From Alloalcanivorax mobilis (GTDB lineage Bacteria; Pseudomonadota; Gammaproteobacteria; Pseudomonadales; Alcanivoracaceae), in the NCBI RefSeq assembly GCF_002864685.1, contig NZ_NMQZ01000022.1:1-64000 (forward strand): a stretch of 64,000 bases of DNA, in the 5' to 3' direction. Shown here piece after piece: positions 16,272 to 61,159 of this stretch. The stretch's first letter is position 1, and each line of letters opens with the position of its first letter. Both the position numbers and the translations under genes were made by a program. A model generated the notes under the pieces. The model was not told where the DNA came from, did not search any database, and saw only the letters and a list, made by a program, of their open reading frames with translations.

Positions 16272-16283
16272 AGGGCGCCTTTA

Positions 16284-16931
16284 ATGAGCTTCAATCTCGC
16301 ACCCGTGGGCATTCTGGCGATCAGCCTCGTTCTGGTTCTGCTCGGCGCCTGGATACTGCTGCGCCACCGCTGGGTGCTGCAGTGGATCAAGGGCACGCTC
16401 GGCCTGGCGGTGCTGGCGATGGCGGTCTACCTGGTGCTGGTGGCGATCAATCTGTACAGCTTTCAGGAGCTGAACGGTGAAACGCCGGTGGCCACCGTCA
16501 GTTTTCGTGCCGCCGGCGAGCAAGCCTATATCGCCACGCTCACGCGGGCCGACGGCACCGCCCGGGACTACCGGCTGCGCGGTGATCAATGGCAGCTGGA
16601 TGCCCGGGTGATCAAATGGAAAACGCCTTTTGCCCTGCTCGGCCTGAAACCCGGTTACCAGCTGGATCGTCTTCAGGGGCGCTATTTCGCCCTTGAAGAC
16701 GAGCGCTCCAAGGAACGCACCGTCTATGGCCTGCGCGACCAGGCAGTGGGGCTGGATATCTGGCGCCAGGCGCGCGAGGGCTGGAGTTTCCTGGTCGATG
16801 CGCGCTATGGTAGCGCCGCTTATCTGCCAATGGCCGATGGCGCCATTTTCGAAGTAACCGTGACCCCGGGCGGTCTGATGGGCCGCCCCCTGAACGGCAG
16901 TGCCCAGCAAGCCGTGTCGGGGTGGCAATAA
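16284..16931 (+). CDS. Predicted membrane-anchored protein (PA1824-like)
   Basis: A 215-residue protein with two N-terminal transmembrane helices (ILAISLVLVLLGAWILL and TLGLAVLAMAVYLVLVAINLYSF), then a soluble domain of about 150 residues, probably periplasmic, that is rich in aromatic and charged residues. It follows nudC by 12 bp, so is probably co-transcribed. The same kind of protein follows nudC in Pseudomonas. Biochemical function unknown. Confidence 0.8.
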   Translation: MSFNLAPVGILAISLVLVLLGAWILLRHRWVLQWIKGTLGLAVLAMAVYLVLVAINLYSFQELNGETPVATVSFRAAGEQAYIATLTRADGTARDYRLRGDQWQLDARVIKWKTPFALLGLKPGYQLDRLQGRYFALEDERSKERTVYGLRDQAVGLDIWRQAREGWSFLVDARYGSAAYLPMADGAIFEVTVTPGGLMGRPLNGSAQQAVSGWQ

Positions 16932-16960
16932 CGCGCGCGGCGGTCCGTGCGCATCCATCC

Positions 16961-16994
16961 GTGCGCAACAATCTGCCTGTGCGCAACAATCTGC
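16961..16994 (+). repeat. 16-bp direct repeat upstream of sohB
   Basis: GTGCGCAACAATCTGC occurs at 16961-16976 and again, exactly, at 16979-16994. A third degenerate copy of the GTGCGCA core is at about 16947. It sits immediately before the sohB start, so it could bear on its expression or simply be slippage-derived. Confidence 0.8.
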
Positions 16995-17005
16995 GAGAGT
17001 AGACG

Positions 17006-18058
17006 GTGATCCAGTTTCTGTTTGAGTACGGCATGTTCCTGGCCAAGGTCGCGACCCTGGTGGTGGCGATTCTGTTCGTGATCGGTGGCATCGCCACGGC
17101 CGCCGCGCGCAGCCGCCAGCGCGCCCACCGCGAGGGCGATCTGCAGGTGAAACACCTCAACGAAGAGTTCGAGGATCTGCGTGACAGCATCGAAAGTCAG
17201 GTTCTGCCCGCCGGCCTGCGCAAGGCGCAGGCCAAAAAGAAGCGCAAGGAACAAAAGGCTCTGGACAAGCAACGCAAAAAGGCCGGTGGCGACACCAAGG
17301 CCAAGCCGCGCCTGTTCGTGCTTGATTTCAACGGCGACATTCACGCCAGTGACGTGGAGCGCATGCGCAACGAGATCACCGCCTTGCTGGAAGTCGCCGA
17401 CAAAGACGACGAAGTGCTGCTGCGGCTGGAAAGCCCCGGTGGCCTGGTGCACAGCTACGGCCTGGCGGCCTCCCAGCTGAAACGGCTGCGCGGCCGTGGC
17501 CTGAAGCTGACCGTGGCGGTGGACCAGGTGGCGGCCAGCGGCGGTTACATGATGGCCTGCATCGCGGACCGCATCATCGCCGCGCCGTTTTCGGTGATCG
17601 GTTCCATTGGCGTGGTCGCCCAGGTGCCGAATTTCCATCGTCTGTTGAAGAAAAACGACATCGACGTGGAGATGATGACCGCCGGCGAGTACAAGCGCAC
17701 CGTCACCATGCTTGGCGAGAACACCGAGAAGGGCAAACGCAAATTCCAGGAAGAGCTGGAAGAGACGCACCAGTTATTCAAGAGCTTCGTGCGCGAACAC
17801 CGCCGTGGTCTGGACATCGACCAGGTGGCCACCGGCGAGCACTGGTTCGGTACCCGCGCCCGGGAGCTGGGGCTGGTGGATGAGATCATGACCAGTGATG
17901 AGTATCTGCAAACCCGCAAAGAACAGCTCGATATTTACGAATTGAGCTGGGAGCAGCGTCGCAAGCTCGCCGAGCGGCTGGGCTTTTCCATGGAGGCGGC
18001 CGGGCTGCGTCTGGTTGACCGCTTCTGGCACCGTGGTTCCCAGCGTCATTTGCACTGA
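17006..18058 (+). CDS. sohB: Inner-membrane peptidase SohB (S49 family)
   Basis: A 350-residue signal-peptide-peptidase-like serine protease. An N-terminal transmembrane helix (KVATLVVAILFVIGGIA) is followed by a charged Lys-rich linker, then the S49 domain with the nucleophile serine in QVAASGGYMMACIAD and the dyad lysine in EYKRTVTMLGENTEKGK. Start codon GTG. The C-terminus is the usual LRLVDRFWHR type. Confidence 0.93.
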   Translation: MIQFLFEYGMFLAKVATLVVAILFVIGGIATAAARSRQRAHREGDLQVKHLNEEFEDLRDSIESQVLPAGLRKAQAKKKRKEQKALDKQRKKAGGDTKAKPRLFVLDFNGDIHASDVERMRNEITALLEVADKDDEVLLRLESPGGLVHSYGLAASQLKRLRGRGLKLTVAVDQVAASGGYMMACIADRIIAAPFSVIGSIGVVAQVPNFHRLLKKNDIDVEMMTAGEYKRTVTMLGENTEKGKRKFQEELEETHQLFKSFVREHRRGLDIDQVATGEHWFGTRARELGLVDEIMTSDEYLQTRKEQLDIYELSWEQRRKLAERLGFSMEAAGLRLVDRFWHRGSQRHLH

Positions 18059-49388: not shown

Positions 49389-49416
49389 AACTACGTGTAA
49401 TGTATAGTTTTGTCAA
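49389..49416 (+). other. attL: hybrid dif-like XerCD site (left prophage junction)
   Basis: XerC box ACTACGTGTAA (49389-49399), central hexamer TGTATA (49400-49405) and a divergent XerD arm GTTTTGTCAAT (49406-49416). The first 17 bases match attR exactly. The divergent arm is taken to be phage-derived. Confidence 0.92.
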
Positions 49417-49440
49417 TGGCCGGGGGCGGGGCCGGCCATT
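49413..49440. repeat. Hairpin overlapping the phage XerD arm
   Basis: CAATGGCCGG (49413-49422) and CCGGCCATTG (49431-49440) form a perfect 10-bp stem with a GC-rich 8-base loop, starting inside the attL XerD arm. It could end the repressor transcript (no T-run) or give the phage attachment site a folded form in single-stranded DNA. Confidence 0.7.
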
Positions 49441-49455
49441 GCTAAGCCACTGATT

Positions 49456-49743
49456 TTAGGCGGCTATTTGCTGGGCAATGTGGCGCCAGTGCTGCGACAT
49501 TTTGTCACTGCCGCGCTTTTCGGAGCGTTCAATTTGAAGCCACAAAATGACCAGCTCAGGGTCTAAACCGGTCAGGTCAGCGATGTCTAAGCCTACCTCG
49601 TCATCCATCACTGTTCCGCGCTTATACCAGCAGCGAACGGCTTCCGGGGACATGTCCAAGCACTTGGCCAGGGCATAGGAAGATTCCTTTCCAATCACGG
49701 ACTTACAGAGGTCCGCAAGCTGAACCGTGGTCATGATTTCCAT
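49456..49743 (-). CDS. Phage HTH regulator, DUF3693-like (repressor candidate)
   Basis: A 95-residue protein transcribed away from the rest of the phage. A helix-turn-helix is read in SYALAKCLDMSPEAVRCWYKRG (residues about 22-43), then VGLDIADLTGLDPELVILWLQIERSEK, as in the DUF3693 phage family. By position (leftmost, divergent from the lytic operon) it is the best lysogeny repressor candidate. Start may be residue 4 (MTTVQL). A palindrome ACAGCC/GGCTGT lies 34-49 bp upstream. Confidence 0.72.
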   Translation of the reverse strand: MEIMTTVQLADLCKSVIGKESSYALAKCLDMSPEAVRCWYKRGTVMDDEVGLDIADLTGLDPELVILWLQIERSEKRGSDKMSQHWRHIAQQIAA

Positions 49744-49964
49744 GTGATCGCACCTTCGTTTTTACACCAGGAACAAACAGCCCGCCGGCTGTCAAGAGTA
49801 GAGCACCCGAAAAAAATAATACGTGGTTTCCTCTCGCATAGCCAATGGGCGACGCCGTTTGCATACCTGATGCCGTTTGGCGTTTGATGTTTGCCGTGAC
49901 CCCGGGGGATGGCCGCCCGGCCTGAACCCGGGGCACCTCAAACAAACAACATGGGGTCACGGCC
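49744..49964. promoter_or_regulatory. Divergent control region of the prophage
   Basis: 221 bp between the repressor and the first rightward gene. It contains ACAGCC/GGCTGT (49777-49782/49787-49792) next to a minus-strand TTGACA (49790-49795); GCCGTTTG twice, 18 bp apart (49854 and 49872); and a perfect 11-bp inverted repeat GCCGTGACCCC (49893-49903) / GGGGTCACGGC (49953-49963) ending two bases before the next ATG. Operators, early promoter and possibly the replication origin could lie here. Confidence 0.65.
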
Positions 49965-50219
49965 ATGAAAAAAACGATGTACCGAGTGGGGGTTCCCTGG
50001 ACCGAGTTTCCAGAGGATGGGTTCACCTACCTGATGCCCGACTCGGACCCAACGAACAAAAAGACGTTTACCGGGGATAGGTTCGAGCCGTTCCCGCTGG
50101 ACAGGCCCGTAGACGATGCGGCCCTGTACGACGCAAAAACAATGTCCACCTGGGTGCAGGTGCTCGCCAGCCGTTACGAATGCGTCGTGGTCGAGCGCGT
50201 GGAGGTGGCCGATGAATAA
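49965..50219 (+). CDS. Prophage early protein, unknown
   Basis: 84 residues, acidic, no membrane segment (MKKTMYRVGVPWTEFPEDG). First gene of the rightward operon; its ATG follows directly after the long inverted repeat, with no good ribosome site, so that structure may govern its translation. It overlaps the next gene by 8 bp. No family recognised. Confidence 0.65.
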   Translation: MKKTMYRVGVPWTEFPEDGFTYLMPDSDPTNKKTFTGDRFEPFPLDRPVDDAALYDAKTMSTWVQVLASRYECVVVERVEVADE

Positions 50220-50526
50220 GCGCGAATTCCACGAACAGGGTATTTTGATCGCAGAGGCGGCGTTGCCGTATTTGCTGCGGCGGGCTGGGGAGTGGCGCGA
50301 GGCCGAGGGCCATAATGGCGGCGTCGTCATTTTTTACGGCGCAGAGGTGGCGGGCTGGATGGATAAGCTGCGCGATCCTCAGCATTGGTGCCCTGGCTGT
50401 CTGGCAGTCACAAAGTTCGGCGGTGTGTGGCGTGCCCATGGCGGCGACGATCACAGCGGCGCCCGCCAGTGGGTCGAGGTGATGCCGGAGCAGGAGTTGG
50501 ATGCTCAGGGGGTGTGTGATGACTGA
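50212..50526 (+). CDS. Prophage early protein, unknown
   Basis: 104 residues from ATG 50212, which has GGAGG seven bases upstream. It contains one CPGC pair (HWCPGCLAVT) and many aromatic residues. It overlaps genes on both sides, so is part of the early operon. Function unknown. Confidence 0.65.
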   Translation: MNKREFHEQGILIAEAALPYLLRRAGEWREAEGHNGGVVIFYGAEVAGWMDKLRDPQHWCPGCLAVTKFGGVWRAHGGDDHSGARQWVEVMPEQELDAQGVCDD

Positions 50527-50896
50527 CGCCACCTACCAGCAATGCCGCGCCGAAATTGACCGCTGCCTGGGCCGCCCGGCCCGGGAATCTGAATCCCTCC
50601 TGTGGGACAACCTGACGATACGCCAGCGCATCATGCTGCTGCGCGCCGTGGGCCTGAGCCCCGCCGAGTGCGGTTACAGCTATTCCGTGCTCACCGTGGC
50701 CCAGCGCCACCGCATCATGCGCGTGCTCACCGAGTGGTTGGGCACCGTTGATCGCCTGAAAACCCTCATGGCGTCGATCACCACCGAAAACCTTGAAACG
50801 CATTGGGAGCGTGTGCGCGGCCATGACCTGGACCCGCGCCTGCGGGAATACTGGCGCGGCCAGGGCGAGCAACCGCCCCGGGAGCGTGCGGCATGA
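50519..50896 (+). CDS. Prophage early protein, unknown
   Basis: 125 residues from ATG 50519, which overlaps the previous gene by 8 bases. It is helical and charged (RIMLLRAVGLSPAECGYSYSVLTVAQRHRIMRVL), possibly a DNA- or protein-binding helical bundle. No family recognised. Confidence 0.62.
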   Translation: MTDATYQQCRAEIDRCLGRPARESESLLWDNLTIRQRIMLLRAVGLSPAECGYSYSVLTVAQRHRIMRVLTEWLGTVDRLKTLMASITTENLETHWERVRGHDLDPRLREYWRGQGEQPPRERAA

Positions 50897-51048
50897 ACCC
50901 GATGTACTCGGCTCTCGGCATCATTGATGGGTATCTGCCGCCGGCGCGCCTGCTGGCAGGCCCGTACCATCCGGGGCCGGGCCGCCCGGGAAAAACCGGT
51001 GTTGCCGCTGCCAAGCGGGCGGCGCGCCGGCGGAGGACGCGCCGATGA
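50893..51048 (+). CDS. Small basic prophage peptide
   Basis: 51 residues. The ATG overlaps the previous stop (ATGA) and its stop overlaps the next ATG. The C-terminus is very basic (KRAARRRRTRR). The chain of overlaps supports translation; function unknown. Confidence 0.45.
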   Translation: MNPMYSALGIIDGYLPPARLLAGPYHPGPGRPGKTGVAAAKRAARRRRTRR

Positions 51049-51143
51049 TGGCCAGCCCCGAATCCATCACCCGCGCCCGCCTGATCGGCCACGGCATCAC
51101 CCTGGTGCTCTGCATGCTGGCCTGCGCCTATGTGGGGCCGTGA
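51045..51143 (+). CDS. Small transmembrane prophage peptide
   Basis: 32 residues with one hydrophobic helix (ITLVLCMLACAYVG). It starts with ATGA overlapping the previous stop and ends as TGATG overlapping the Rep start, so Rep translation is coupled to it. Possible holin-like or membrane-anchoring role, unproved. Confidence 0.45.
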   Translation: MMASPESITRARLIGHGITLVLCMLACAYVGP

Positions 51144-52939
51144 TGCTGACCGCACACTGGCAACAAACCCAACAGGCGGCGATGGCAGCCCGAGCCCGGG
51201 CGCACCTGCTGGACCAGCAGAGGTTCGCGGATGAAAACCGCACCTGGGCCGAGCGCACCGCCGGGCCGGCCTGGGCGGCGCTCCAGCGCCCCTACATGGC
51301 CATCGCCCAGCGCGCCAGCTACGCCGACGCAAGCCGCTACCTGAGCGACTACGCGCCCCTGGTGCGCCATGACCTGTATCTGGCCGACACCGATGCCGGC
51401 ATACGGGCGTTTTGCGATCAGCGTGTGCAGGAATGTCGCCGCTGGATCATGGCCGAGAGCGAAACAGACGCGCTGCGCTACTGCGCCGCCATCCTGGATC
51501 GCTACGGACTGGACTGGCCCGCGCCGGCGTCGCCGATTGATGGCCCGGCGGTGGACCTGTTCCCACTGGCCGCCCGGCTCCAGTGCCCGAAATGGTGGAG
51601 ACGCCGAGTGCGCGTGCTCCAGGCGCGGGAGGTCGATCAATACGCCCGGCAACGCCGCCGCGTCGCGAAATACCGCGAGGTCTACTGTTCCGATTGGCTG
51701 GTGAAAAACCGCCGGGCGGCGGCGCGCCGGAATCGCGACATGCTGGAGAGCACCACCGCCACCAATGATGACGGCCAGGAATACACCCTGGCGGAGCTGG
51801 CCGATCTGGGCACCGCGAACCTGAGCAACCGCCGCAATGAGCTGATGACCCGCATTCGGGGATTCGAAGAAGTGGCCACCGCCAGGGGCCACGCCGGCGT
51901 GTTCTGGACGTTCACCACCGCGAGCCGCTGGCACCGTATGCGCTGGCTACCGAAACCCGGCAAAGCTGTGAAAAACAGCCGGTGGGAGGGCAGCACGCCC
52001 CGCGACGCGCAAAACCAGCTCTGCACGCTGTGGGCGCGCATCCGGGCGGCGCTGCACCGTGCGGAAATCCGAGTTTACGGGTTCCGGGTGGCGGAGCCGC
52101 ACCATGACGGCACGCCCCATTGGCATCTGCTGCTGTTCATGCGCCCGGGCGACGTGCGCGCCGCCCGCCGGATCGCTCGCCGGGTGCTGGTGATGGCCGA
52201 CAACCCCACCGAGCGCGGTGCACGCCGGCGTCGATTCGAGCATGTGCAGATGGACGCCAGCCGGGGCACTGCCGCCGGCTACATCGCGAAGTACATCGCG
52301 AAAAACATTGATGGCCGGGGCGTGCGAGGCGCCCTGGGCGAGCAGGATGACGATAGCGGCCTGGACATGAGCAACGCCGCCGAGCGCGTCCAGGCATGGG
52401 CGAGCGGGTGGGGCATCCGTCAGTTTCAGCAGATCGGCGGCCCCAGCGTCACCGTGTGGCGGGAGCTGCGCCGGCTGTGGGCCAGCGGTGGCCCCACCAC
52501 CGGCGACCTGTTCGACGCGGGAGACGCCCTGGAGGCCGCCGGCGAGGCAGCCGACGCCGGCGATTGGGCGGCTTACGTCGAGGCCATGGGCGGCCCGGAG
52601 CTGCCGCGTGCAAACCGGATTATCTCGCCCGGCTACTGGCTGGAGTCGGGAATCGACACCGACACCGGCGAGGTAGTACCAGGCCGGGCGACCACCGAGT
52701 ACGGCGACCGCACCGCCGGCGCGCTGTTCGGTTTATGGGCGGGCACAAAACCGGTGCTGACCCGGTTTTATCGCTGGGCGATCAGCTACGCCAGAAAACC
52801 AGAAAAGAAACCGGAAATTAAACCTGTTGCGGGGTGGTTTTTAACCGCCCCCATGGAGCTGCTGCGCGCCGCCGAAAGAATCGCGGCGGTGCGGGCTGGA
52901 CCGCCGCGCCCTGGCGCGGCCTTGGACTTGTGTCAATAA
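51143..52939 (+). CDS. Rolling-circle replication initiator, HUH endonuclease (phage GPA/PM2 P12-like)
   Basis: 598 residues from ATG 51143. The metal-binding HUH motif is in HHDGTPHWHLLLF (H326, H328); the nicking tyrosines are spaced Y-x3-Y in GYIAKYIAKN (Y380, Y384), the arrangement of superfamily I Reps such as the phi-X174 A protein and PM2 P12. It should nick the double-stranded origin and drive rolling-circle replication with host helicase and polymerase. The long N-terminal region is helical and Arg-rich. Largest phage gene. Confidence 0.9.
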   Translation: MLTAHWQQTQQAAMAARARAHLLDQQRFADENRTWAERTAGPAWAALQRPYMAIAQRASYADASRYLSDYAPLVRHDLYLADTDAGIRAFCDQRVQECRRWIMAESETDALRYCAAILDRYGLDWPAPASPIDGPAVDLFPLAARLQCPKWWRRRVRVLQAREVDQYARQRRRVAKYREVYCSDWLVKNRRAAARRNRDMLESTTATNDDGQEYTLAELADLGTANLSNRRNELMTRIRGFEEVATARGHAGVFWTFTTASRWHRMRWLPKPGKAVKNSRWEGSTPRDAQNQLCTLWARIRAALHRAEIRVYGFRVAEPHHDGTPHWHLLLFMRPGDVRAARRIARRVLVMADNPTERGARRRRFEHVQMDASRGTAAGYIAKYIAKNIDGRGVRGALGEQDDDSGLDMSNAAERVQAWASGWGIRQFQQIGGPSVTVWRELRRLWASGGPTTGDLFDAGDALEAAGEAADAGDWAAYVEAMGGPELPRANRIISPGYWLESGIDTDTGEVVPGRATTEYGDRTAGALFGLWAGTKPVLTRFYRWAISYARKPEKKPEIKPVAGWFLTAPMELLRAAERIAAVRAGPPRPGAALDLCQ

Positions 52940-52953
52940 CTGTACGGTGAGCA

Positions 52954-53157
52954 ATGCGGAACGCGGATTACAGAAAATATTTTGGGGAGCGGCTGATGGT
53001 CGAGCGGGTCATTCACTGGCTGGCCGACAATCCGCCACCGAACGGGTGGCGCGGCGGTTGCTACGCCTGGGCATACGCGGAAATGCCGCTGGAGCCCGGG
53101 GAGAGATTCACGGTGAAACGGATACGCAAGGGGATTGGTGATGGCGGTAAAAAATAA
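52954..53157 (+). CDS. Small prophage protein, unknown
   Basis: 67 residues, basic C-terminus (FTVKRIRKGIGDGGKK), no membrane helix. It begins 14 bp after Rep and overlaps the next gene. Unknown. Confidence 0.55.
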   Translation: MRNADYRKYFGERLMVERVIHWLADNPPPNGWRGGCYAWAYAEMPLEPGERFTVKRIRKGIGDGGKK

Positions 53158-53509
53158 CGCGGTGGTAGGGCACATCGAGTGCCCGCTGTGCAACGGCAAC
53201 GCCACGGTGCATTCGTGCATGGTGGGGCGCGGGCGAGCGCGTGAGGCGCTGTACATCCGGTGTGGGACTGTCTCGAACGGCTGCGGCTGCATCCAGCCCT
53301 ACGGCCCCACCGGGCAGGCGTTTATCCGCGACCGATACCGGCCAATCGACGCGCCCGCCGCCGATCCGGCCCCGGCGCCCGGCCCTGAACCGGTGGCCGA
53401 TCCCGCGCCGGCGGCGAACGGCGATGAATACACGCCGGGCGAGCCGGCGGAAACCGATCAAAAACCGAAACGGCGCGGGTTCCTGTCCGCGCTACTGAGC
53501 GAGGAGTAA
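53141..53509 (+). CDS. Zinc-finger protein, possible late-gene activator
   Basis: 122 residues from ATG 53141, with AAGGGG seven bases upstream. A four-cysteine zinc ribbon is seen as CPLC, a later HSC, then CGTVSNGCGC, resembling Ogr/Delta-type phage activators. The second half is Pro/Ala/Asp-rich and disordered, ending KRRGFLSALLSEE. PM2 encodes small zinc-finger factors that switch on its virion operon; the same job here is inference. Confidence 0.6.
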   Translation: MAVKNNAVVGHIECPLCNGNATVHSCMVGRGRAREALYIRCGTVSNGCGCIQPYGPTGQAFIRDRYRPIDAPAADPAPAPGPEPVADPAPAANGDEYTPGEPAETDQKPKRRGFLSALLSEE

Positions 53510-53516
53510 GCCACGG

Positions 53517-54008
53517 ATGGCGACCAAAAAACCGGAAAAAACCGAAACCCCGGCCACGGACGGCCAACACGCTAAACCAGAGCCTAAGCCAGAACCGATA
53601 CCGGAAAAACCGGATTACTCGGCGCTGGAGGCCATCGCCGGAGAAGACAGCGCGAACGACGATTACAAACCGGAGCCGGGCGGTGATAAACCGGAACCGG
53701 CCAGCGTCGGCGCCAAGGAACTGGCCATGCTGTATCACATGGTTTACGGCGTCGCGGCGGCCCGCCTGGGCGCCCATTGGGCGATCACCGAAACCGAGGC
53801 CAATGACCTGGGCCGGGCCACCGACGCTGTGCTGGCCAAATACGGTGCCCGAATGGCGATGGGGCCGGAGTTCACGTTGGTGATGACGGCGGCGATCATC
53901 ACCGCGCCCCGCGCCATGCTGACCCTGGCGGATCGTGGCAAAAAACCGGACGAAAAACCGAAACAAGCCGAACCGGCCAGCCTGGAGGCGGGCGATGGCG
54001 GTCAATAA
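53517..54008 (+). CDS. Prophage protein with disordered N-terminus, packaging-associated by position
   Basis: 163 residues. The first 65 are Pro/Glu/Lys-rich (PEPKPEPIPEKPD), then a helical domain (AKELAMLYHMVYGVAAARLGAHW and FTLVMTAAIITAPRAML, the latter possibly membrane-associated), then a charged tail. It overlaps the ATPase start by 14 bp, so the two are coupled. No family recognised. Confidence 0.6.
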   Translation: MATKKPEKTETPATDGQHAKPEPKPEPIPEKPDYSALEAIAGEDSANDDYKPEPGGDKPEPASVGAKELAMLYHMVYGVAAARLGAHWAITETEANDLGRATDAVLAKYGARMAMGPEFTLVMTAAIITAPRAMLTLADRGKKPDEKPKQAEPASLEAGDGGQ

Positions 54009-54633
54009 AAACCCAGCGCTCGACGCCCGGCACACGCTGGTGGTGGGCGCCACCGGCGCCGGTAAATCTCAGGCCATTAAAAACCTGATACCGCGACGGG
54101 GTGTGCGCGTGATCGCGTTCGATCCGGACGGCGATCACGGGTGCCATGAGTTCGCCAGCCTGCCGGCGTTTGCCCGGGAGCTGAAGAGGGCGGACCGGTC
54201 GGGGCGCAATTATCGGCTGGCCTACACCGGCGCCACCAGTCCAGACGATTTGCAGCGGTTTTGTTCCTGTGTGTGGGCAGTGCTGGACGGCAACCGCGAT
54301 ACGCATGTGATTTTGGAAGAGGCCGCGCAGTTCACAAGCGGCAGCGGTCCAGCCACCGATGCCCTGGCAAACCTCTACCTGCGGTCGCGCAAATACGGCG
54401 GCATCTTGTACGGGGTGGGGCAGCGGGCAGCGGAGATTCCCAGCACCATGCGCATGAACAGCGCCCACAAGTACATTGGCGTGCTCCAGGGTTCTTTGGA
54501 CGCAAAAGCGGCCATGGCGATGACCGATATACCGGTGGAAACCCTGCTGAAAACCCCGCCCAAGCAGTTGCGATTTTGGCGGAAGTCGGATGGCGAAGCA
54601 CCCGAATACCTGCAATTCAAATATCTCGGCTGA
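53995..54633 (+). CDS. Genome-packaging ATPase (P9-type, FtsK/HerA superfamily)
   Basis: 212 residues. Walker A is VVGATGAGKSQAI (residues 16-28), Walker B is HVILEEAAQF (E108/E109), and a downstream GVGQRAAEIPSTMRMNSAHK carries sensor/arginine-finger-like residues. Small size and the THxxxEE pattern fit the A32-like packaging ATPases of double-jelly-roll viruses (PRD1 and PM2 P9). Filamentous Zot proteins are the main alternative, but those carry a C-terminal membrane helix, absent here. GGAGG precedes ATG 53995. Confidence 0.82.
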   Translation: MAVNKNPALDARHTLVVGATGAGKSQAIKNLIPRRGVRVIAFDPDGDHGCHEFASLPAFARELKRADRSGRNYRLAYTGATSPDDLQRFCSCVWAVLDGNRDTHVILEEAAQFTSGSGPATDALANLYLRSRKYGGILYGVGQRAAEIPSTMRMNSAHKYIGVLQGSLDAKAAMAMTDIPVETLLKTPPKQLRFWRKSDGEAPEYLQFKYLG

Positions 54634-54660
54634 ATTAAATTAAACCTAAAAAACAGGTGA

Positions 54661-54685
54661 ACGGCGCTGCGGCGCCGTTTTTTTT
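54661..54685 (+). terminator. Rho-independent terminator between replication and virion genes
   Basis: ACGGCGC (54661-54667), loop TGCG, GCGCCGT (54672-54678), then an uninterrupted run of eight T (54678-54685). It is the strongest terminator in the window and splits the phage operon. Confidence 0.9.
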
Positions 54686-54834
54686 GTTGACCGGAAACCT
54701 GAACGCCATGGTTCGCTGCGTCCTGCACCCGCCGGCGATTCGCACCCGCCGGCACCAGGACAGGGATGGAGAGGCACAGGGATGTGCGCCTTTTTCACCC
54801 GGTGGTTTGCTAAACAACCGTGGGAACACTACCG
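54686..54834. promoter_or_regulatory. Probable late promoter region
   Basis: About 150 bp between the terminator and the first virion ORF. No strong consensus -35/-10 pair is seen; TTGACC lies at 54686-54691 without a matching -10. That fits a promoter needing a phage activator. An open frame crossing this region (54657-54902) reads through the terminator and is rejected. Confidence 0.4.
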
Positions 54835-54930
54835 ATGAACAAGTCACGTTTGATTACCGTCGCGATGGCCGTTGCTGTTATCGCCGTGCTGAACCGCACT
54901 AGCCAGGGTAAAACCCTGCTGAACGGCTAA
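54835..54930 (+). CDS. Tiny membrane protein (virion-type)
   Basis: 31 residues, one hydrophobic helix (LITVAMAVAVIAVL) then TSQGKTLLNG. Its TAA overlaps the next ATG (TAATG). PM2-type virions carry many such peptides in the inner membrane; assignment by analogy. Confidence 0.55.
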   Translation: MNKSRLITVAMAVAVIAVLNRTSQGKTLLNG

Positions 54931-55094
54931 TGGACGCGCTCAGCGATCCGGTCGGCTACGTCCGACAAAACACTGACCCGAAGATCGTGGTCAGTTCCGT
55001 GATAGCAGCCATCGCCGTGGGCGGTGTGCTGTTGTTAATGAGTAAATCCGGTGTTGGCCCGCTCCAAGCGGTGGCCCGCGCCGCCGGCAAATAG
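54930..55094 (+). CDS. Small membrane protein (virion-type)
   Basis: 54 residues with one transmembrane helix (VVSSVIAAIAVGGVLLLMS) and a basic tail (AVARAAGK). It lies immediately before the capsid gene, as small membrane proteins do in PM2-like genomes. Confidence 0.6.
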   Translation: MDALSDPVGYVRQNTDPKIVVSSVIAAIAVGGVLLLMSKSGVGPLQAVARAAGK

Positions 55095-55106
55095 CAGGGA
55101 CGCAAA

Positions 55107-55955
55107 ATGCCTCTCGCAATCGAGCGTAACGAAATTGAATTGACCACTCCGAACGGGGTGAGCAAGGGCGGTGTGGCCACGTTCCAGTTGCCGCGCGGCC
55201 TGCGGTTCCATCATCTGCGGATCGAGTACACCGGCGTGCTCGCCGACTACCCGGAAATCCGCGTAAAGGCGAACACCGAGACGGTCCGCCGCTACTCGTT
55301 TACCGAACAGGACATGATGAATCAGGCCGACAAATTGCCGGCTGCCGGTGACCTCGGTTACCTGCTGGTTCCGTTCGATAAAATCCACGGTCGCATCCGC
55401 GAATCCGAGGAAGAAACCGCGCTCAACGTGGGCCGCCCTGCTGGCGCCGATCCGCAACCCGGCGAGATCACTAACGCCGAGGTGCAGATTGAAATCAGCG
55501 GCGCCATGGCTGTGGACCCGCAACTGAAAATTTGGGCCACCGTGAGCAACGCGGTGCCCGGTGGCGCCGGCATTGTGCGCCACTTCGTGAAAACGTCTCG
55601 CAACGCCGGCGGCGCCGGTGAGCTGGACATCCAGGATTTGGATTACAACCGCCCCAACCGGGCGTTTATCCGCCGCATGTTCCTGGCCACCGATAAAATT
55701 TCCCGGATCAAAATCAAACGGGATGACCGGATCATTTTCGACCGCTCCCGGGCGATCAACAACGGCGTGATTCTGGAGGGTGGTTACCGCGTCCAGCCCG
55801 CCGGCTACACGCTGATCGACCGGTCTGAATACGGCTACGGCGGCCTGCGGATCAGCACTATCGGTGCACAGTCGTTCCGCCTCCAGCTCGAATTCACCGA
55901 GGCGGCGCCGTCGTTCGGGATCATCACCGAGTACATCGGCGCGCTGGTCGCGTAA
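55107..55955 (+). CDS. Candidate major capsid protein, double jelly-roll
   Basis: 282 residues, close to PM2 P2 (about 269). It is beta-rich with no signal or membrane helix, and starts MPLAIERNEIELTTPNGVS, a capsid-like opening. Two beta-sandwich halves can be imagined around a central linker near residues 105-120 (NVGRPAGADPQPGEI); conserved-looking strands include AEVQIEISGAMAVDPQLKIWA and SFRLQLEFTEAAP. The call rests on size, position after the ATPase and the tailless gene set; a structure prediction would decide it. Confidence 0.78.
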   Translation: MPLAIERNEIELTTPNGVSKGGVATFQLPRGLRFHHLRIEYTGVLADYPEIRVKANTETVRRYSFTEQDMMNQADKLPAAGDLGYLLVPFDKIHGRIRESEEETALNVGRPAGADPQPGEITNAEVQIEISGAMAVDPQLKIWATVSNAVPGGAGIVRHFVKTSRNAGGAGELDIQDLDYNRPNRAFIRRMFLATDKISRIKIKRDDRIIFDRSRAINNGVILEGGYRVQPAGYTLIDRSEYGYGGLRISTIGAQSFRLQLEFTEAAPSFGIITEYIGALVA

Positions 55956-55978
55956 ACGGGCCGGAGTAGGGGAACCGC

Positions 55979-56263
55979 ATGAGCATCTGGTCTCAGATCG
56001 GCGACACGTTCGGCGACGCCTGGGAGACGGTTAACACCGGCGCCCAGCAGTACGTGAAAAATGAGGTTGGCGATTGGGTTTCCGAGCAGCAGGGCCGCCC
56101 GGAAACCGTCAACCAGGAGGCGTCGCCGGCGCCCTATGCCGGTGACGCGGCAGTGGCCCAGCAACAGGCCGACGCGATCCGCGCCACGCTCCAACAGTGG
56201 AAAACCCCGGCCATGCTGGTCCTGGGTGGTCTCGCCGTCTACCTGATTGCGAGCCGCATCTGA
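55979..56263 (+). CDS. Virion membrane-protein candidate
   Basis: 94 residues. A soluble Gln/Glu-rich N-terminal part is followed by a C-terminal helix (PAMLVLGGLAVYLIASRI). AGGGGA precedes the ATG and the stop overlaps the next start (TGATG). Confidence 0.65.
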   Translation: MSIWSQIGDTFGDAWETVNTGAQQYVKNEVGDWVSEQQGRPETVNQEASPAPYAGDAAVAQQQADAIRATLQQWKTPAMLVLGGLAVYLIASRI

Positions 56264-56514
56264 TGGTGGGCATCGGCGGACTACTCGGCGGGATGGGCGG
56301 CCAGGGCTCGTCATTCGGCAACGCCGGCCCGAGCTCCGTGGGCGACACCTTCACCGGTGCCGTGGACATGGGCGGGCCGGTCGTGAACTTCGCGGGCGCC
56401 GGCGGAACGGCAACGTCATCAACCGGCGGCCTGCCGGCGCTCTCACCCAACACCATGATGCTGGCCGGCGCTGCGGCGCTGGTGCTGCTGCTGGTGTGGA
56501 AGCGCAAAAAGTAA
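56263..56514 (+). CDS. Glycine-rich virion membrane-protein candidate
   Basis: 83 residues. A Gly/Ser-rich N-terminal half (GIGGLLGGMGGQGSSFGNAG) and a C-terminal helix with a basic stop-transfer (MMLAGAAALVLLLVWKRKK). Coupled to the preceding gene. Unknown role. Confidence 0.65.
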   Translation: MVGIGGLLGGMGGQGSSFGNAGPSSVGDTFTGAVDMGGPVVNFAGAGGTATSSTGGLPALSPNTMMLAGAAALVLLLVWKRKK

Positions 56515-56972
56515 CGCGCTGGTGCCCGGCGGTTCATGCCGCTGTGGTGGCCAGCACAGGAACAGAGGCCGCCGTCGAGCTGCGAGACATGTGGCAACGG
56601 CGCGAGGTCGCCGCGTTCACCGCCGCCGGCAGTGTAGTGGTGATCGAGATATGGCGGGATGCCGATGGCCTGGTCGGGGCGTTCCAGGCCTGCCAGGGGC
56701 CGGGCGCCTACGCGATCACCCGGGCGGTGATCGAACAGGCCGCCGGCGCCGGGGTTCAGCGGTTTCAGTGTGAGGCGGACACCGCCGCCCATGCGCGCCT
56801 CTACGGTCGCTGGGGGCGCTGGCTACAAAACGCGGGAGTGATAACAGAGTGGCGAGTAGCAGCAGTTCCAAACAATCGACCAGCGTCACCAATGTCCGCG
56901 AGGACAACATTTTCTCCAACTCGGGCGTATCGGGTGACGTTCTCAATATCGGCAAAGCGGGCGGCGACGTAA
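56496..56972 (+). CDS. Possible GNAT-like protein overlapping its neighbours
   Basis: The frame from GTG 56496 encodes 158 residues with an acetyltransferase-like look (EIWRDADGLVGAFQACQGPGAYAITRAVIEQAAGAGVQRFQCEAD, then HARLYGRWGRWLQNAGV). GTG 56544 is an alternative start. It overlaps the next gene by 124 bp, where its last 40 residues may be unimportant. Codon composition in the middle looks coding. GNAT membership is tentative. Confidence 0.5.
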   Translation: MEAQKVTRWCPAVHAAVVASTGTEAAVELRDMWQRREVAAFTAAGSVVVIEIWRDADGLVGAFQACQGPGAYAITRAVIEQAAGAGVQRFQCEADTAAHARLYGRWGRWLQNAGVITEWRVAAVPNNRPASPMSARTTFSPTRAYRVTFSISAKRAAT

Positions 56973-57319
56973 CCGTCAACACCACCGATCACGGCGCCGT
57001 CGCGGCGGCCCTGGAGGCAAACCAGGGCATCGCGTCAACGGCGTTCGAGCAGGCCTTCGGCTTCGGCAACGCCGCGCTGGACGCGAACACCGACACCGTA
57101 GAAACCGCTCTCAACGCGAACCGCGACGTGATATCCGATGCGTTTTCATCGATGGAGTGGCGCGACCAGCAACAGAGCCAGCAGATCAGCCGGGCGTTCG
57201 ATTTCGCCCAAAGCGCCGCCACCAGTGACAGCGCTGAAACCATGCAATCCGCATTCAAATACACCGCGTTGGCCGTGGCTGCTGCCGCCGGCGCCTACCT
57301 GATTAGCCGGAGCGCCTGA
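56849..57319 (+). CDS. Virion protein candidate with helical repeats and C-terminal membrane helix
   Basis: 156 residues starting at GTG 56849. A Ser-rich start is followed by a Gly/Asp-rich beta-like stretch (SGDVLNIGKAGGDVTVNT), then a long Ala-rich amphipathic helical part and a C-terminal helix (ALAVAAAAGAYLISRSA). It may bridge the membrane and the capsid or spike; unproved. Confidence 0.68.
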   Translation: MASSSSSKQSTSVTNVREDNIFSNSGVSGDVLNIGKAGGDVTVNTTDHGAVAAALEANQGIASTAFEQAFGFGNAALDANTDTVETALNANRDVISDAFSSMEWRDQQQSQQISRAFDFAQSAATSDSAETMQSAFKYTALAVAAAAGAYLISRSA

Positions 57320-57320
57320 T

Positions 57321-58721
57321 ATGGACCACCGTCGCACGCTCGCCCCCGGTGAGCTGATCCAGATCAAAACCGCCGGCGATTACATCTACTGCAAATGGTC
57401 AGACCGCCCCGTGCGCGTGCTGATCGAGGGCGAACCGGTCGAAATGATGACCGGCGACCTCTGGCGCCCCGCCGGCGGGTTTAATGGTTTCGAGGTGGAG
57501 AACCGGGGTAACGAAAACCCGGTGGCGGTGATCTTCACTGTCGGGCGGGGCAGCTACAACCGCCAGACCATCCAGGGCGAGGTCACCGTAAACCCCGGTA
57601 TCCGGGGCCGTGACGGTCAGTTTGTCGATGACACCCGTTCAACCGTGGCGCTGCGGGTCGCACTCGGAAACATCACGCCGGTTTCGTACAACGCCGGGCA
57701 GCAAATGGCAGTGATCGGCACCGGGCTGCCGACGCCGGCAAACGGGCGGCCGATCCCGCTGGATGACGGGCGTATTGTCGTTGGTAACTACTCGGCACCC
57801 TGGCGCGTCTATGATCCAGAGGGCGGCTATTCCGAGCTGGCCGGGTTCGATAACGACGCGGGCGACGCCATGGGGGTTCAGGTGGGCCGAGAGCTATGGA
57901 TCGCGGTGCGTGAGACGCTGCCAACAAAACATGTGGCGATCTGGTGCTACGACGCGGCGGCGCTTTCGTTTCGGCGTAAGTTCCCCACTGGGCTCACAGG
58001 TGGGTATCTGTATTTGCGGGCTATGACGGTGGGCGATGGCCGAATCTACGTAAAAACCGAAGGCGCCAGTGGCCAGTCCGATACTGTCGTGATGATGGAT
58101 ATGAGCGGCACGGTGCTGCGGCAGGTTTCAGTCGATCACTCAACAAAGTCGCTCGTTGTCTACGGCGGACTGTTGTACATGGTCGGTGTCGGGGGATTCG
58201 ACAACGCCGCCGTTATTTTGGACGCCGTCACCCTGGAGACGGTACCGGAGAGCGAGGGCAAGTTGCCGGCAATGGACGGCGCGGGAACGCTATCCGGAGT
58301 GGCGCTGGATCACCGTGGTGATCTGATTAGGATCGGGAGCACCGGGGTGCTGTCGCGCTGTTCTGCTACCGATCAGACGTTGACGGTTTCCGGGAGCGTA
58401 TCGAGCTGCGCCGGTGCCGGCATGCTGCGCCGTGATCGTGTTGTATCGCGTGCGCTGGTGGCGGCGGAGCGTCAGCCTAACGGATCGGTGATGCTCTCCG
58501 GAGAGCTGCTGCGCGCCGCGCTGGAAATTTACACGGGGCGATTCATGCCGGCAGATTATCTTGATTATGTCTACGCCGTGGTGGCCGACAACCTGAACGG
58601 AATCAGTCCCCGCGTGATCGATGCGGGCGGGCAATCGTTCGCCGCTGCCGGGCTCGTTGATGACGCCTACGGGACATTCCCTCAAACCCTGAAAATAACG
58701 CTCCGGGAGGGGCTGCTCTGA
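57321..58721 (+). CDS. Spike / receptor-binding protein candidate
   Basis: 466 residues, beta-rich, the largest virion-side protein. The N-terminal about 95 residues (LIQIKTAGDYIYCKWSDRPVRVLIEG) look like a vertex-attachment domain; residues 120-330 carry propeller-like repeats (DDGRIVVGNYSAPWRVYDPEGG, VGDGRIYVKTEG, YGGLLYMVGVGG). PM2's P1 spike has a similar place and size class. It starts 2 bp after the previous stop and overlaps the next gene by one base. Confidence 0.62.
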   Translation: MDHRRTLAPGELIQIKTAGDYIYCKWSDRPVRVLIEGEPVEMMTGDLWRPAGGFNGFEVENRGNENPVAVIFTVGRGSYNRQTIQGEVTVNPGIRGRDGQFVDDTRSTVALRVALGNITPVSYNAGQQMAVIGTGLPTPANGRPIPLDDGRIVVGNYSAPWRVYDPEGGYSELAGFDNDAGDAMGVQVGRELWIAVRETLPTKHVAIWCYDAAALSFRRKFPTGLTGGYLYLRAMTVGDGRIYVKTEGASGQSDTVVMMDMSGTVLRQVSVDHSTKSLVVYGGLLYMVGVGGFDNAAVILDAVTLETVPESEGKLPAMDGAGTLSGVALDHRGDLIRIGSTGVLSRCSATDQTLTVSGSVSSCAGAGMLRRDRVVSRALVAAERQPNGSVMLSGELLRAALEIYTGRFMPADYLDYVYAVVADNLNGISPRVIDAGGQSFAAAGLVDDAYGTFPQTLKITLREGLL

Positions 58722-59134
58722 TGGAATTCGCAAATAAAACTCAGATTCAATTTGAGCCCGGCGCGCCAGCGTTTGGTCTCACTGCGGCGGGCGAAGCCTA
58801 CGACACTCCAGAGTGGTTCCGGGATCGCCTGGGCGACCTGTCGCGGCTCCAGTACATCGCCGCTGAGTGGGCGGTGGAGCTGACGGCCAGCGAGGTCAGC
58901 GCCGGCGTCGTAACCGTCGAGCTGCTCGCGGGCAGCACCGTGGTAGACAGCATTGAGGTGGGTTTCTCTGCTGGCGCGACTACTGGTGTGTTGCGGGAGG
59001 TCGATCTGTTCGGCGTCGGCGGTGGCCAGCGTTTGCACGTTCGCGCAACGGTGACCACTGAGGGGGCCGGCACCGCCGCCGTGAAAACGTGGCTCTCAAT
59101 CGCTCAACCGCTCGTAGTGGGTAGCTGCGGGTAA
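58721..59134 (+). CDS. Beta-rich virion protein candidate
   Basis: 137 residues, predicted nearly all beta (VVTVELLAGSTVVDSIEVGF, RLHVRATVTTEGAG). It is coupled to the spike candidate (ATG overlapping its stop), so may be a spike accessory or minor capsid part. No family recognised. Confidence 0.6.
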   Translation: MEFANKTQIQFEPGAPAFGLTAAGEAYDTPEWFRDRLGDLSRLQYIAAEWAVELTASEVSAGVVTVELLAGSTVVDSIEVGFSAGATTGVLREVDLFGVGGGQRLHVRATVTTEGAGTAAVKTWLSIAQPLVVGSCG

Positions 59135-59751
59135 TGTGGCCGCTGGCTCTGATCGGAGTTGGTGCCGGCCTGTGGTGGGTCTGGCAACGGCAGGCCGGGC
59201 AGGGCGGTGGTACCACGCCGGCCCCTGGTGCATCCAGCAGCACAGGCACGGATACGGTGCTGGGCGGAATCATTGATGAACTGCTCAACACCGTCGCGAA
59301 CAACGGCGCTGGCGCGTCCACGGATGGACCGATGAATATGGACCCGAATCTGCCGAGAGGCATCCGCAACAACAACCCCGGCAACATCCGGCGATCCGCC
59401 GACGCATGGCAGGGGCTCAGTGACACGCAAACCGACACCGCATTTTTCCAGTTCAGGGCGCCGCTCTACGGCATCCGAGCCCTGGCAAAAATCCTGCGCA
59501 ACTATCGCGACCTGTACGGCCTGTACACCGTGCGCGGCATCATCAATCGGTGGGCGCCGCCGGTGGAGAACAACACCGGTGCCTACGTCAACGCCGTGGC
59601 CGGCGCCATGGGCGTGAGCGCGGACGTGCCGCTGCAATGGGACCTGGGCGAGCTGCGCGCTCTGGTCGGCGCGATCATCAAACACGAAAACGGTCAGCAA
59701 CCCTACACCGCGTCGCTGCTCGATCAGGCGATCCAGGCGGCGGGCTGGTAA
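59134..59751 (+). CDS. Virion-associated peptidoglycan hydrolase (transglycosylase-like, membrane-anchored)
   Basis: 205 residues. An N-terminal membrane anchor (WPLALIGVGAGLWWVW) and Gly/Ser linker precede a domain starting at residue 75 with RGIRNNNPGNIRRS, the hallmark of the phage structural/lytic domain found in many tailless-phage and prophage virion proteins. The domain continues to IIKHENGQQPY. It should open the cell wall during entry. Overlaps by one base on each side. Confidence 0.78.
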   Translation: MWPLALIGVGAGLWWVWQRQAGQGGGTTPAPGASSSTGTDTVLGGIIDELLNTVANNGAGASTDGPMNMDPNLPRGIRNNNPGNIRRSADAWQGLSDTQTDTAFFQFRAPLYGIRALAKILRNYRDLYGLYTVRGIINRWAPPVENNTGAYVNAVAGAMGVSADVPLQWDLGELRALVGAIIKHENGQQPYTASLLDQAIQAAGW

Positions 59752-60053
59752 TGGCGCTGGTCACCGACAAACAGGCCTGGGTGATCGGCGGCGCGCTGCT
59801 GGTCGGCGGGTATCTGGTGTACCGGGCGCGCAACATGCTGAACCCGGCGAACCCGGGCAACGTGGTGAACCAAACGGTGAACGGCGTAGGGCAGGCCGTC
59901 AGTGGTGACACGGATTGGACCCTGGGCGGGTGGCTGTATGAGGTCACGCATCCGGGCGAGGGGTACGGGTTGAACCCCGAAACGGCGCCGCTCTGGTGGC
60001 GCTTGCAAAACCCTGAACACTACTCACGCGACACAATCATGGATGGGCTCTAA
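59751..60053 (+). CDS. Virion membrane-protein candidate
   Basis: 100 residues. An N-terminal helix (AWVIGGALLVGGYLVYRARN) is followed by a soluble tail containing GNVVNQTVNGVGQAVSGDTDW. Starts as TAATG with the lytic gene. Confidence 0.65.
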   Translation: MALVTDKQAWVIGGALLVGGYLVYRARNMLNPANPGNVVNQTVNGVGQAVSGDTDWTLGGWLYEVTHPGEGYGLNPETAPLWWRLQNPEHYSRDTIMDGL

Positions 60054-60055
60054 CA

Positions 60056-60241
60056 ATGAAAAACTGGATTTCTAAACTGTTCGCCGGCGACTGGGGCAAG
60101 CTGTTGATCGCCGCCATCGTGGGCTCCGCGCTGACCGCCACCGGCCTGCCGCCGGCAGTGATTGGCACCATTGCCACCAGCGCCGGCAACGCCGTGGACA
60201 GCGCCGCCGATGGCCTGGGCCAGGGCGCCGAGTCCGAATAA
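60056..60241 (+). CDS. Small membrane protein
   Basis: 61 residues with one hydrophobic region (LLIAAIVGSALTATGLPPAVIGTIAT), Gly/Ala-rich, acidic tail. Could be a virion peptide or a holin; its place right after the lytic gene makes holin possible. Confidence 0.6.
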   Translation: MKNWISKLFAGDWGKLLIAAIVGSALTATGLPPAVIGTIATSAGNAVDSAADGLGQGAESE

Positions 60242-60414
60242 TGGACGTGGGCGCACTGTTGCAGGCAGTATTGGGCGGTGGCGCGGCTGCGCAAGTCGCC
60301 ACGGTCGCGATCCTCCTGAGCATCCGCAAGGAGAACAAGGAGGCCAACCGGCGTATTAGCCGGCTGGAGCGCGGCGTGTGGCCTGACGTGTTCGGTCGCG
60401 ACACTGACTGTTAG
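60241..60414 (+). CDS. Small membrane protein with charged tail
   Basis: 57 residues. Helix AAAQVATVAILLSI, then a highly charged segment (RKENKEANRRISRLERG), the layout of small holin- or spanin-like proteins. Starts TAATG with the previous gene. Its stop is inside a short hairpin (60403-60419). Confidence 0.55.
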   Translation: MDVGALLQAVLGGGAAAQVATVAILLSIRKENKEANRRISRLERGVWPDVFGRDTDC

Positions 60415-60469
60415 TCAGTTTCTCCATTTGTTTATTCGGATTTAACGCCCGCTCATAGCGGGCTTTTTT
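60403..60469 (+). terminator. Double terminator at the end of the virion operon
   Basis: First hairpin ACTGACT (60403-60409) / AGTCAGT (60413-60419). Second GCCCGC (60447-60452) / GCGGGC (60458-60463) followed by six T (60464-60469). The second overlaps the 3' end of the convergent minus-strand gene. Confidence 0.88.
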
Positions 60470-60843
60470 ATGTCCGGCGCCTGGGGTGCCAGGTGCAGCA
60501 CCGGAGCGGCGGGCCGGCGGCGCAGAGCGCGGTAGTCGGCGGCCATCTGAAACAACGCCCATGACGTGCGCAGTTGCTCCGGGGTCCAGGTTTCGTTCGT
60601 GTCCAGGTGGACCAGCATGCCGCGCCTGAGCCGGAAATGGTGCCACCGGTCATCCGGAATGATCCCCAGCGCGTGGAGCCTGAGCGCCGCCAGATCGGCA
60701 GGCGCTGGCCGGGCGCCGGCGGCCCAGCGCTGCGCGGTGCGCACGCTGCGGCCTGTGAATTTTGCGGCGTGCCAGGGTGACAGGTGCGCGGTTTCGCCGG
60801 TCCAGGGGCATTCAACGCGCACCGCTTGATATTGTTTACGCAT
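60442..60843 (-). CDS. Phage HTH-like protein, DUF3653-like
   Basis: 133 residues, basic. The segment LSPWHAAKFTGRSVRTAQRWAAGARPAP is a helix-turn-helix (residues about 21-48), then LRLHALGIIPDDRWHHFRLRRGML. DUF3653-type proteins occur in small prophages. Encoded convergently to the virion genes at the right end, next to attR, so perhaps a regulator of lysogeny or excision. Its last codons overlap the operon terminator. Confidence 0.7.
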   Translation of the reverse strand: MRKQYQAVRVECPWTGETAHLSPWHAAKFTGRSVRTAQRWAAGARPAPADLAALRLHALGIIPDDRWHHFRLRRGMLVHLDTNETWTPEQLRTSWALFQMAADYRALRRRPAAPVLHLAPQAPDIKKPAMSGR

Positions 60844-61159
60844 AACATCCGATCCCGTTTGTAATGAAATAGTCTAAAAAGGCCCCGAATCCTGTAGGAC
60901 AATCGCGGGGCCGTCACGGTGGGTCTTGACGGGCGGCGTCGTTTCTGTTCCTGGCGGTGCGTGTTCATCCTGAACTACGTGTAATGTATATTATGTTAAA
61001 TAGGGTAAATCAGGCAATCAACGAATACTCCGAAGACCCTCATCGTTTTCCTCCCGGTCCGGTGTTTTTTTTCCTGGCACCGTGAATCCCTCCTGCTCGC
61101 CGACTACACTGTGCACCCGATCGAGACCGCTTCACCAGCCACACTGACCCAGGTGCCCG
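60844..61159. other. Right prophage border and host flank
   Basis: 316 bp without a gene. The phage part (60844-60984) must hold the promoter of the DUF3653-like gene; the host part (61002-61159) holds AT-rich sequence and a GTTTTTTTTCC stretch near 61064. AattR/dif lies at 60974-61001. Confidence 0.6.
60974..61001 (+). other. attR: reconstituted chromosomal dif site
   Basis: XerC box ACTACGTGTAA (60974-60984), central hexamer TGTATA (60985-60990) and XerD box TTATGTTAAAT (60991-61001). The XerD box and hexamer are identical to those of E. coli dif; the XerC box is divergent, as usual for that arm. This is where XerCD should resolve chromosome dimers. Confidence 0.95.

Follow-up and report, generated by a model that had tools for sequence, protein, structure and literature searches.

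What kind of element occupies the dif site of Alloalcanivorax mobilis, and which recombinase brought it there? The locus lies in a stretch of 64,000 nt (the window; RefSeq assembly GCF_002864685.1, contig NZ_NMQZ01000022.1, positions 1 to 64,000), for which an earlier note, made without database searches, had proposed a tailless prophage of the double jelly-roll type inserted at dif. Our analysis supports this proposal. The element is very likely a small tailless, probably membrane-containing temperate phage with double-stranded DNA (dsDNA) of the order Vinavirales; it resides in the host dif. This reading is carried by the family and fold of the capsid protein, homologues in PM2 order, an attachment site pair together with a single dif, the lack of an integrase match and a syntenic relative that is also inserted at dif.

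Gene content and the capsid protein

The element spans positions 49,390-61,001 of the window, slightly more than the ends given earlier (49400..60985). The starts of its two attachment (att) sites are 11,584 bp apart, and its G+C content is 63.9% against 63.4% in the window. A minus-strand gene for a helix-turn-helix (HTH) protein is followed by rightward early genes and the gene of an HUH replication initiator (Rep), then by the genes of a packaging ATPase, a 54 amino acid (aa) membrane protein and a 282-aa capsid protein. Beyond the capsid gene, the genes of small membrane proteins and of the spike candidate precede that of a peptidoglycan hydrolase; three further small proteins and, on the minus strand, a regulator candidate complete the set (features are on the plus strand unless stated otherwise). 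This is the gene order of PM2, a Pseudoalteromonas phage of the Corticoviridae, and the same layout is described as the conserved core of Vinavirales in PMC9502842.

The capsid protein (55107..55955) was assigned to the P2 type by a P2_N-type family profile and by its double jelly-roll fold, so that the structure check proposed in the earlier note came out as anticipated. The structural claim is based on VIA-align, with which Foldseek candidates were re-aligned. The P9-like packaging ATPase (53935..54633, 232 aa), whose gene adjoins the capsid gene, matches DUF87/HerA (E-value 4e-5), phrog_2666 (E 2e-27) and PM2 P9 (33% identity, E 3e-24); the 47 phage records that it matches are solely of Vibrio and Pseudoalteromonas. 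A P2-type double jelly-roll capsid protein next to such an ATPase characterizes Vinavirales. The Rep protein (50924..52939; its true start is perhaps the ATG at 51143) matches Phage_GPA (E 1.9e-72) and PM2 P12 (33%, E 2e-58).

We searched 18 PM2 proteins against the element. P12, P14, P9 and P5 have counterparts there, and orf a matches weakly; the other 13, including P2 and P1, gave nothing better than E 0.4. The P14-like regulator (53135..53509, 124 aa, E 8e-13) has a cysteine-rich N-terminus. The P5-like peptidoglycan hydrolase (59134..59751, 205 aa, with an N-terminal anchor) is 41% identical to PM2 P5 (E 5e-29) and matches the phrog_873 endolysin (E 1e-56). It had been called a transglycosylase earlier, a name to be replaced by that of a P5 homologue, as P5 is assigned to LytD-superfamily endolysins (PMC9502842). 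Its PHROG 'tail' names (phrog_2276, phrog_7182) were rejected, since PM2 P5 matches the protein and the phrog_873 match scores far better. The regulator candidate at the place of PM2 orf a (60442..60843, minus strand, 133 aa, 41% identical to the relative described below) matches orf a at E 0.02; its label 'tail assembly protein' from phrog_1668 (E 2e-5) is not believed either.

The remaining parts of the gene set named in the earlier note were recovered as well: the HUH Rep, the small packaging ATPase (of HerA/FtsK type), the 282-residue capsid candidate, a spike candidate identified by position and conserved ends, and tiny membrane proteins, found as short proteins with one hydrophobic stretch. 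The latter, predicted from these stretches, would be consistent with an internal membrane.

Attachment sites and the host dif

The right att site (60974..61001) is a complete host dif, ACTACGTGTAA TGTATA TTATGTTAAAT. The left one (49390..49417) is a hybrid, ACTACGTGTAA TGTATA GTTTTGTCAAT, in which the XerC arm and the centre are intact and the XerD arm is degenerate (5 mismatches in 11 positions); the sequence common to both copies is AACTACGTGTAATGTATA. The pattern derived from them has two matches in the window at up to three mismatches, against 0.00 expected from 100 shuffles. In the host genome the right copy is the sole dif match. Among genomes of the genus, 12 of 13 have exactly one dif match at up to one mismatch, and the thirteenth (86% complete) has none; a control search with the backwards sequence gave no matches. 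Insertion at dif is thus borne out by the att pair and the single-copy dif. With dif-type att sites at both ends, a rebuilt dif and no integrase of its own among the 20 open reading frames (ORFs) scanned, some of which are unmatched, the element has the sequence features of an Xer-exploiting element (IMEX).

A syntenic relative

A related element, G042, is present in Alcanivorax sp. NORP25 (NZ_NVWY01000004.1), of the same family as the host. It is bordered by a full dif and a hybrid site, and 20 of the 23 window ORFs are matched there in the same order (tblastn, E <=0.05), with identities of 55% for the capsid protein, 52% for Rep and 60% for the ATPase. It differs from the window element in its host, which is of another genus, and in lacking matches to three ORFs, the early ones before Rep. 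A scan of viral contigs with the window capsid protein as sole query found no relative.

Several points weigh against our reading. PM2 P2 has no pairwise match to the capsid protein, the likeness being seen through profile and fold. The early ORFs, the spike candidate and an ORF at the place of a GNAT gene are without database support. We looked for a clean empty site and found none: two genomes (G004 and G009) have left flank, dif and right flank in this order on a single contig, yet with 23-27 kb between the left flank and dif, which makes the neighbourhood a variable one. Tailless prophages of Vibrio that are inserted at dif share the site with the window element and, unlike it, reportedly carry integrases regularly (PMC11630473). 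Finally, the element is known from sequence alone, and this, together with the putative status of the spike and of several small proteins, would also suit a defective or domesticated remnant that has kept capsid and replication genes and no longer makes virions. We consider such a remnant unlikely: the core genes have uninterrupted frames of normal length, and G042 has them in the same order, its longer proteins being 30-69% identical. Decay would not have preserved such frames and such an order.

Integrases and dif insertion

P2_N was present in 5 of 46 genomes of the host family and in 22 of 390 genomes drawn evenly from the order (controls: 0 of 14 in both cases). The survey of dif insertion comprised 31 entries, or 30 distinct loci, as G193 is the same contig as L026. 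A full dif was found in 13 of the 30, including all five loci from the host family.

Integrases were sought by Pfam in 12 loci without dif (ORFs of 240-480 aa in the end regions) and in 12 dif loci besides the window (ORFs of at least 200 aa between the sites). Not included were G352b (the second copy in its genome), the short contigs G183 and G102, and L027 and L030, each a contig of its own with no pair of dif sites. Of the 12 loci that lack dif, 11 contain a tyrosine integrase of Int_N type, one per locus in this test. The 69 ORFs of the 12 dif loci, three of which are cut by contig ends, showed no integrase family, nor did the 20 scanned ORFs of the window element. Dif insertion and an integrase gene were thus never seen in one locus of the examined set, none of which is from Vibrio as far as the records show. 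The integrases of two Vibrio records, used as queries, had no match in the 31 loci; these queries are too distant.

The idea that an unrecognised phage recombinase inserted the element in place of XerCD could draw on the integrases of the Vibrio prophages and on the three early ORFs without database match. We regard it as quite improbable, given the integrase-free ORFs of the window and of the 12 dif loci, the lack of counterparts of the early ORFs in the dif-inserted G042 element, and an att core that is dif itself. PM2-like prophages, which the earlier note named as known from aquatic bacteria, were described there in 2007 with a remark on possible use of XerC/D (PMC1950889). NO16 (proposed Asemoviridae; PMC9966536) and Jorvik (PMC10589892) resemble the window element in being temperate and tailless and in having sites that are dif or similar to it, and XerCD has been proposed for them; they have other hosts and were compared by description only. 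The choice between host recombinases and own integrases at dif is left open for tailless prophages in PMC11630473, and the present element bears on it. Elements of this kind were known before from other aquatic bacteria; a tailless phage seemingly hitchhiking on XerCD is apparently new for the Alcanivorax family; our literature search found no paper joining Alcanivorax, prophage and double jelly-roll or tailless.

Some loci of the survey deserve separate mention. In G300 neither dif nor integrase was found; it is flanked by a 20-bp direct repeat (L075, 4342-4361 and 14625-14644; 19 of 20 positions identical, 10,283 bp apart), loosely dif-like and palindromic, which is perhaps a different Xer-type site and recalls that of Jorvik (PMC10589892). 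L079 (G407) holds a second integrase, the two different tyrosine integrase genes standing side by side at the element end (14970-15944 and 16145-17464). Two integrase-type element copies with equal match scores occur in one genome (G352; L080 and L081). Among 49 ORFs from the ends of the 12 dif-free loci, 2 match Dus (dihydrouridine synthase), in accord with the dusA insertion hotspot reported for tailless prophages of Vibrio.

Polarity of the rebuilt dif

In 13 of 13 loci (not independent trials, as the loci share descent) the full dif follows the capsid gene downstream, with 5.4-7.8 kb between the start of that gene and the site. As a control, reversed sequences of the 31 entries yielded no full site and three half-sites. 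Element and dif point the same way in nine loci and opposite ways in four. In 10 of the 13 loci a partner half-site was identified on the side of the repressor: eight, the window among them, keep the XerC arm (class C), and two, G052 and G041 (a weak site), keep the XerD arm (class D); L028 has a still weaker candidate. Because the control gives about one half-site per ten loci, one of the ten partner sites may be due to chance; two stray half-sites were seen in G270a, an integrase-bearing locus. Since the host supplies one arm per junction, the phage's own arm is dif-like on the late-gene side and unlike dif on the repressor side, whichever the polarity.

A possible, though doubtful, generalization is that tailless phages of the order Vinavirales in Gammaproteobacteria have a swappable lysogeny end beside the repressor, holding either a tyrosine integrase or a half-dif attP that borrows XerCD. 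Such an attP would exist in two polarities, its kept arm always facing the late genes, so that dif would always be rebuilt at the late end; if this held under both polarities, it would mean that the degenerate repressor-side arm is functional, e.g. as a site at which a phage protein directs Xer integration or excision. No description of the late-end pattern was found in the passages of the literature consulted. Among filamentous phages, those with a single dif-like attP recombine as dsDNA, either XerC-first (VGJ) or XerD-first (TLC) (PMC4246890).

For the window element the cycle could run as follows. The circular phage genome would carry one half-dif attP, its intact part, the XerC arm and centre, lying towards the late genes and its degenerate XerD arm towards the repressor. 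Recombination of attP with dif by host XerC/XerD would leave the hybrid site on the repressor side and rebuild a complete dif on the late-gene side, by which chromosome dimer resolution would be kept. Upon induction, Xer excision would free the circle, Rep would nick it for rolling-circle replication, and the P9-type ATPase would package it into a P2-type capsid; the P5-type lysin and small membrane proteins may serve release or entry.

Two further loci have unusual structures. In the dif-inserted relative G025 (L044, 4923-6835) two overlapping frames (4923-6047 and 6029-6835) share the Rep homologue between them. L027 carries ATPase and capsid genes twice, at both contig ends (200-1995 and 10218-11986), which suggests a circular or terminally redundant element.

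Affiliation within Vinavirales

The element fits Vinavirales and fits neither Corticoviridae nor Autolykiviridae cleanly, being a mix of the two. With PM2 it shares the gene order, a P12-type Rep as in Corticoviridae, the P14, P9 and P5 homologues and the capsid fold; PM2, known as a lytic isolate, differs in its capsid sequence. The Livvievirus phages 1.249.A and D526 of Vibrio (Autolykiviridae) resemble the element in the capsid protein (39-40% identity over 99%) and the hydrolase (58% over 127 aa), and weakly in the ATPase (E 9e-7). Unlike it, they have a type B DNA polymerase and no HUH Rep, and 1.249.A has a putative terminal protein. Queries with the Livvievirus polymerase and terminal protein had no match in the element at E 1; the protein-primed replication of Autolykiviridae was not seen there.

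In a midpoint-rooted tree of 39 capsid proteins, those of the window and G042 share a clade of 11 rows (100/99) with both Livvievirus isolates; addition of Paulavirus 1.080.O gives a 12-row clade (99/95), so that the capsid groups with Autolykiviridae. The capsids of PM2, GXT1010 and PG21 are in another clade with G145 and G183 (5 rows, 100/99), to which the window does not belong. As raw minima, without comparison with shuffled labels, HUH Rep and type B polymerase swap places at least two times on this tree (22 rows with an assigned state), the insertion mode switches between dif and integrase at least six times (27 rows, where L030 counts as dif on one half-site and two Vibrio records count as integrase on their GenBank notes), and the polarity class switches between C and D at least four times (14 rows). 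Close capsid pairs with differing insertion modes are G041/G374 and G107/G407. Exchangeable replication modules in the PM2 group are stressed in PMC5894146; here an autolykivirus-type capsid is joined to a Rep-driven temperate genome.

The likeness to FLiP put forward earlier found no support past the common double jelly-roll fold, and a FLiP-type capsid, expected for Finnlakeviridae, was not the closest fold; a FLiP-like single-stranded DNA phage is highly improbable. Least credible of all is a filamentous (inovirus) prophage, a kind that also favours dif and may carry a related Rep (the window Rep matches 324 phage records, including filamentous Vaf1 and P2-like tailed phages, and alone is not diagnostic): it is refuted by the capsid fold and family, the ATPase is of HerA/P9 type with no match to Zot, the sign that the earlier note had wanted checked, and neither a Zot/pI ATPase nor a filamentous coat protein family appears among the matches to the 20 ORFs. 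The filamentous, the tailed and the FLiP-like reading were each tested and given up, in agreement with the earlier view that nothing tailed or filamentous is present.

Remaining genes

The HTH protein (49456..49743, minus strand, 95 aa; phrog_4441 HTH DNA-binding, E 2e-15; 62% identical in G042) is a putative repressor by its position. The three early ORFs that follow (49965-50219, 50116-50526 and 50501-50896; together 49965..50896) have no Pfam or PHROG match; a PADLOC call of Cas2e on one of them (its sole match, E 0.0055) is not believed. Downstream of Rep, a 67-aa protein (52954..53157; G042 54%) occupies the PM2 P13 place by position only, as PM2 P13 gives no match. The 163-aa ORF-h-like protein (53517..54008; phrog_29676, E 4e-6) is a putative assembly factor; PM2 gp h matches its G042 counterpart (E 3e-6), a direct match in the window not being seen.

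The 54-aa membrane protein (54930..55094; hydrophobic stretch, KD19 2.67; G042 50%) is placed at PM2 P7 by position only. Two small membrane proteins of 94 and 105 aa (55979..56514) with C-terminal hydrophobic stretches and weak G042 matches lie at the P3/P4/P8 place. The next ORF (56496..56972; G042 34%, E 8e-15) is named by its position at the GNAT gene of other Vinavirales; it has no GNAT match in Pfam, and the Livvievirus GNAT protein gives E 0.9 only. A 156-aa structural protein candidate with a C-terminal membrane stretch (56849..57319) matches the product of Livvievirus gene 16 (E 1e-8) and PG21 (E 1e-5).

The P1-like spike candidate (57321..58721, 466 aa) has conserved ends and a variable middle in a five-row alignment (19-33% identity); it has no match among phage records, and its structural model is poor except for residues 1-78 and part of the C-terminus. 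A 137-aa protein (58721..59134) is 46% identical in G042 and has no Pfam or PHROG match. Three small proteins of 102, 61 and 57 aa (59745..60414), all matched in G042, have hydrophobic stretches that make them possible lysis or membrane proteins.

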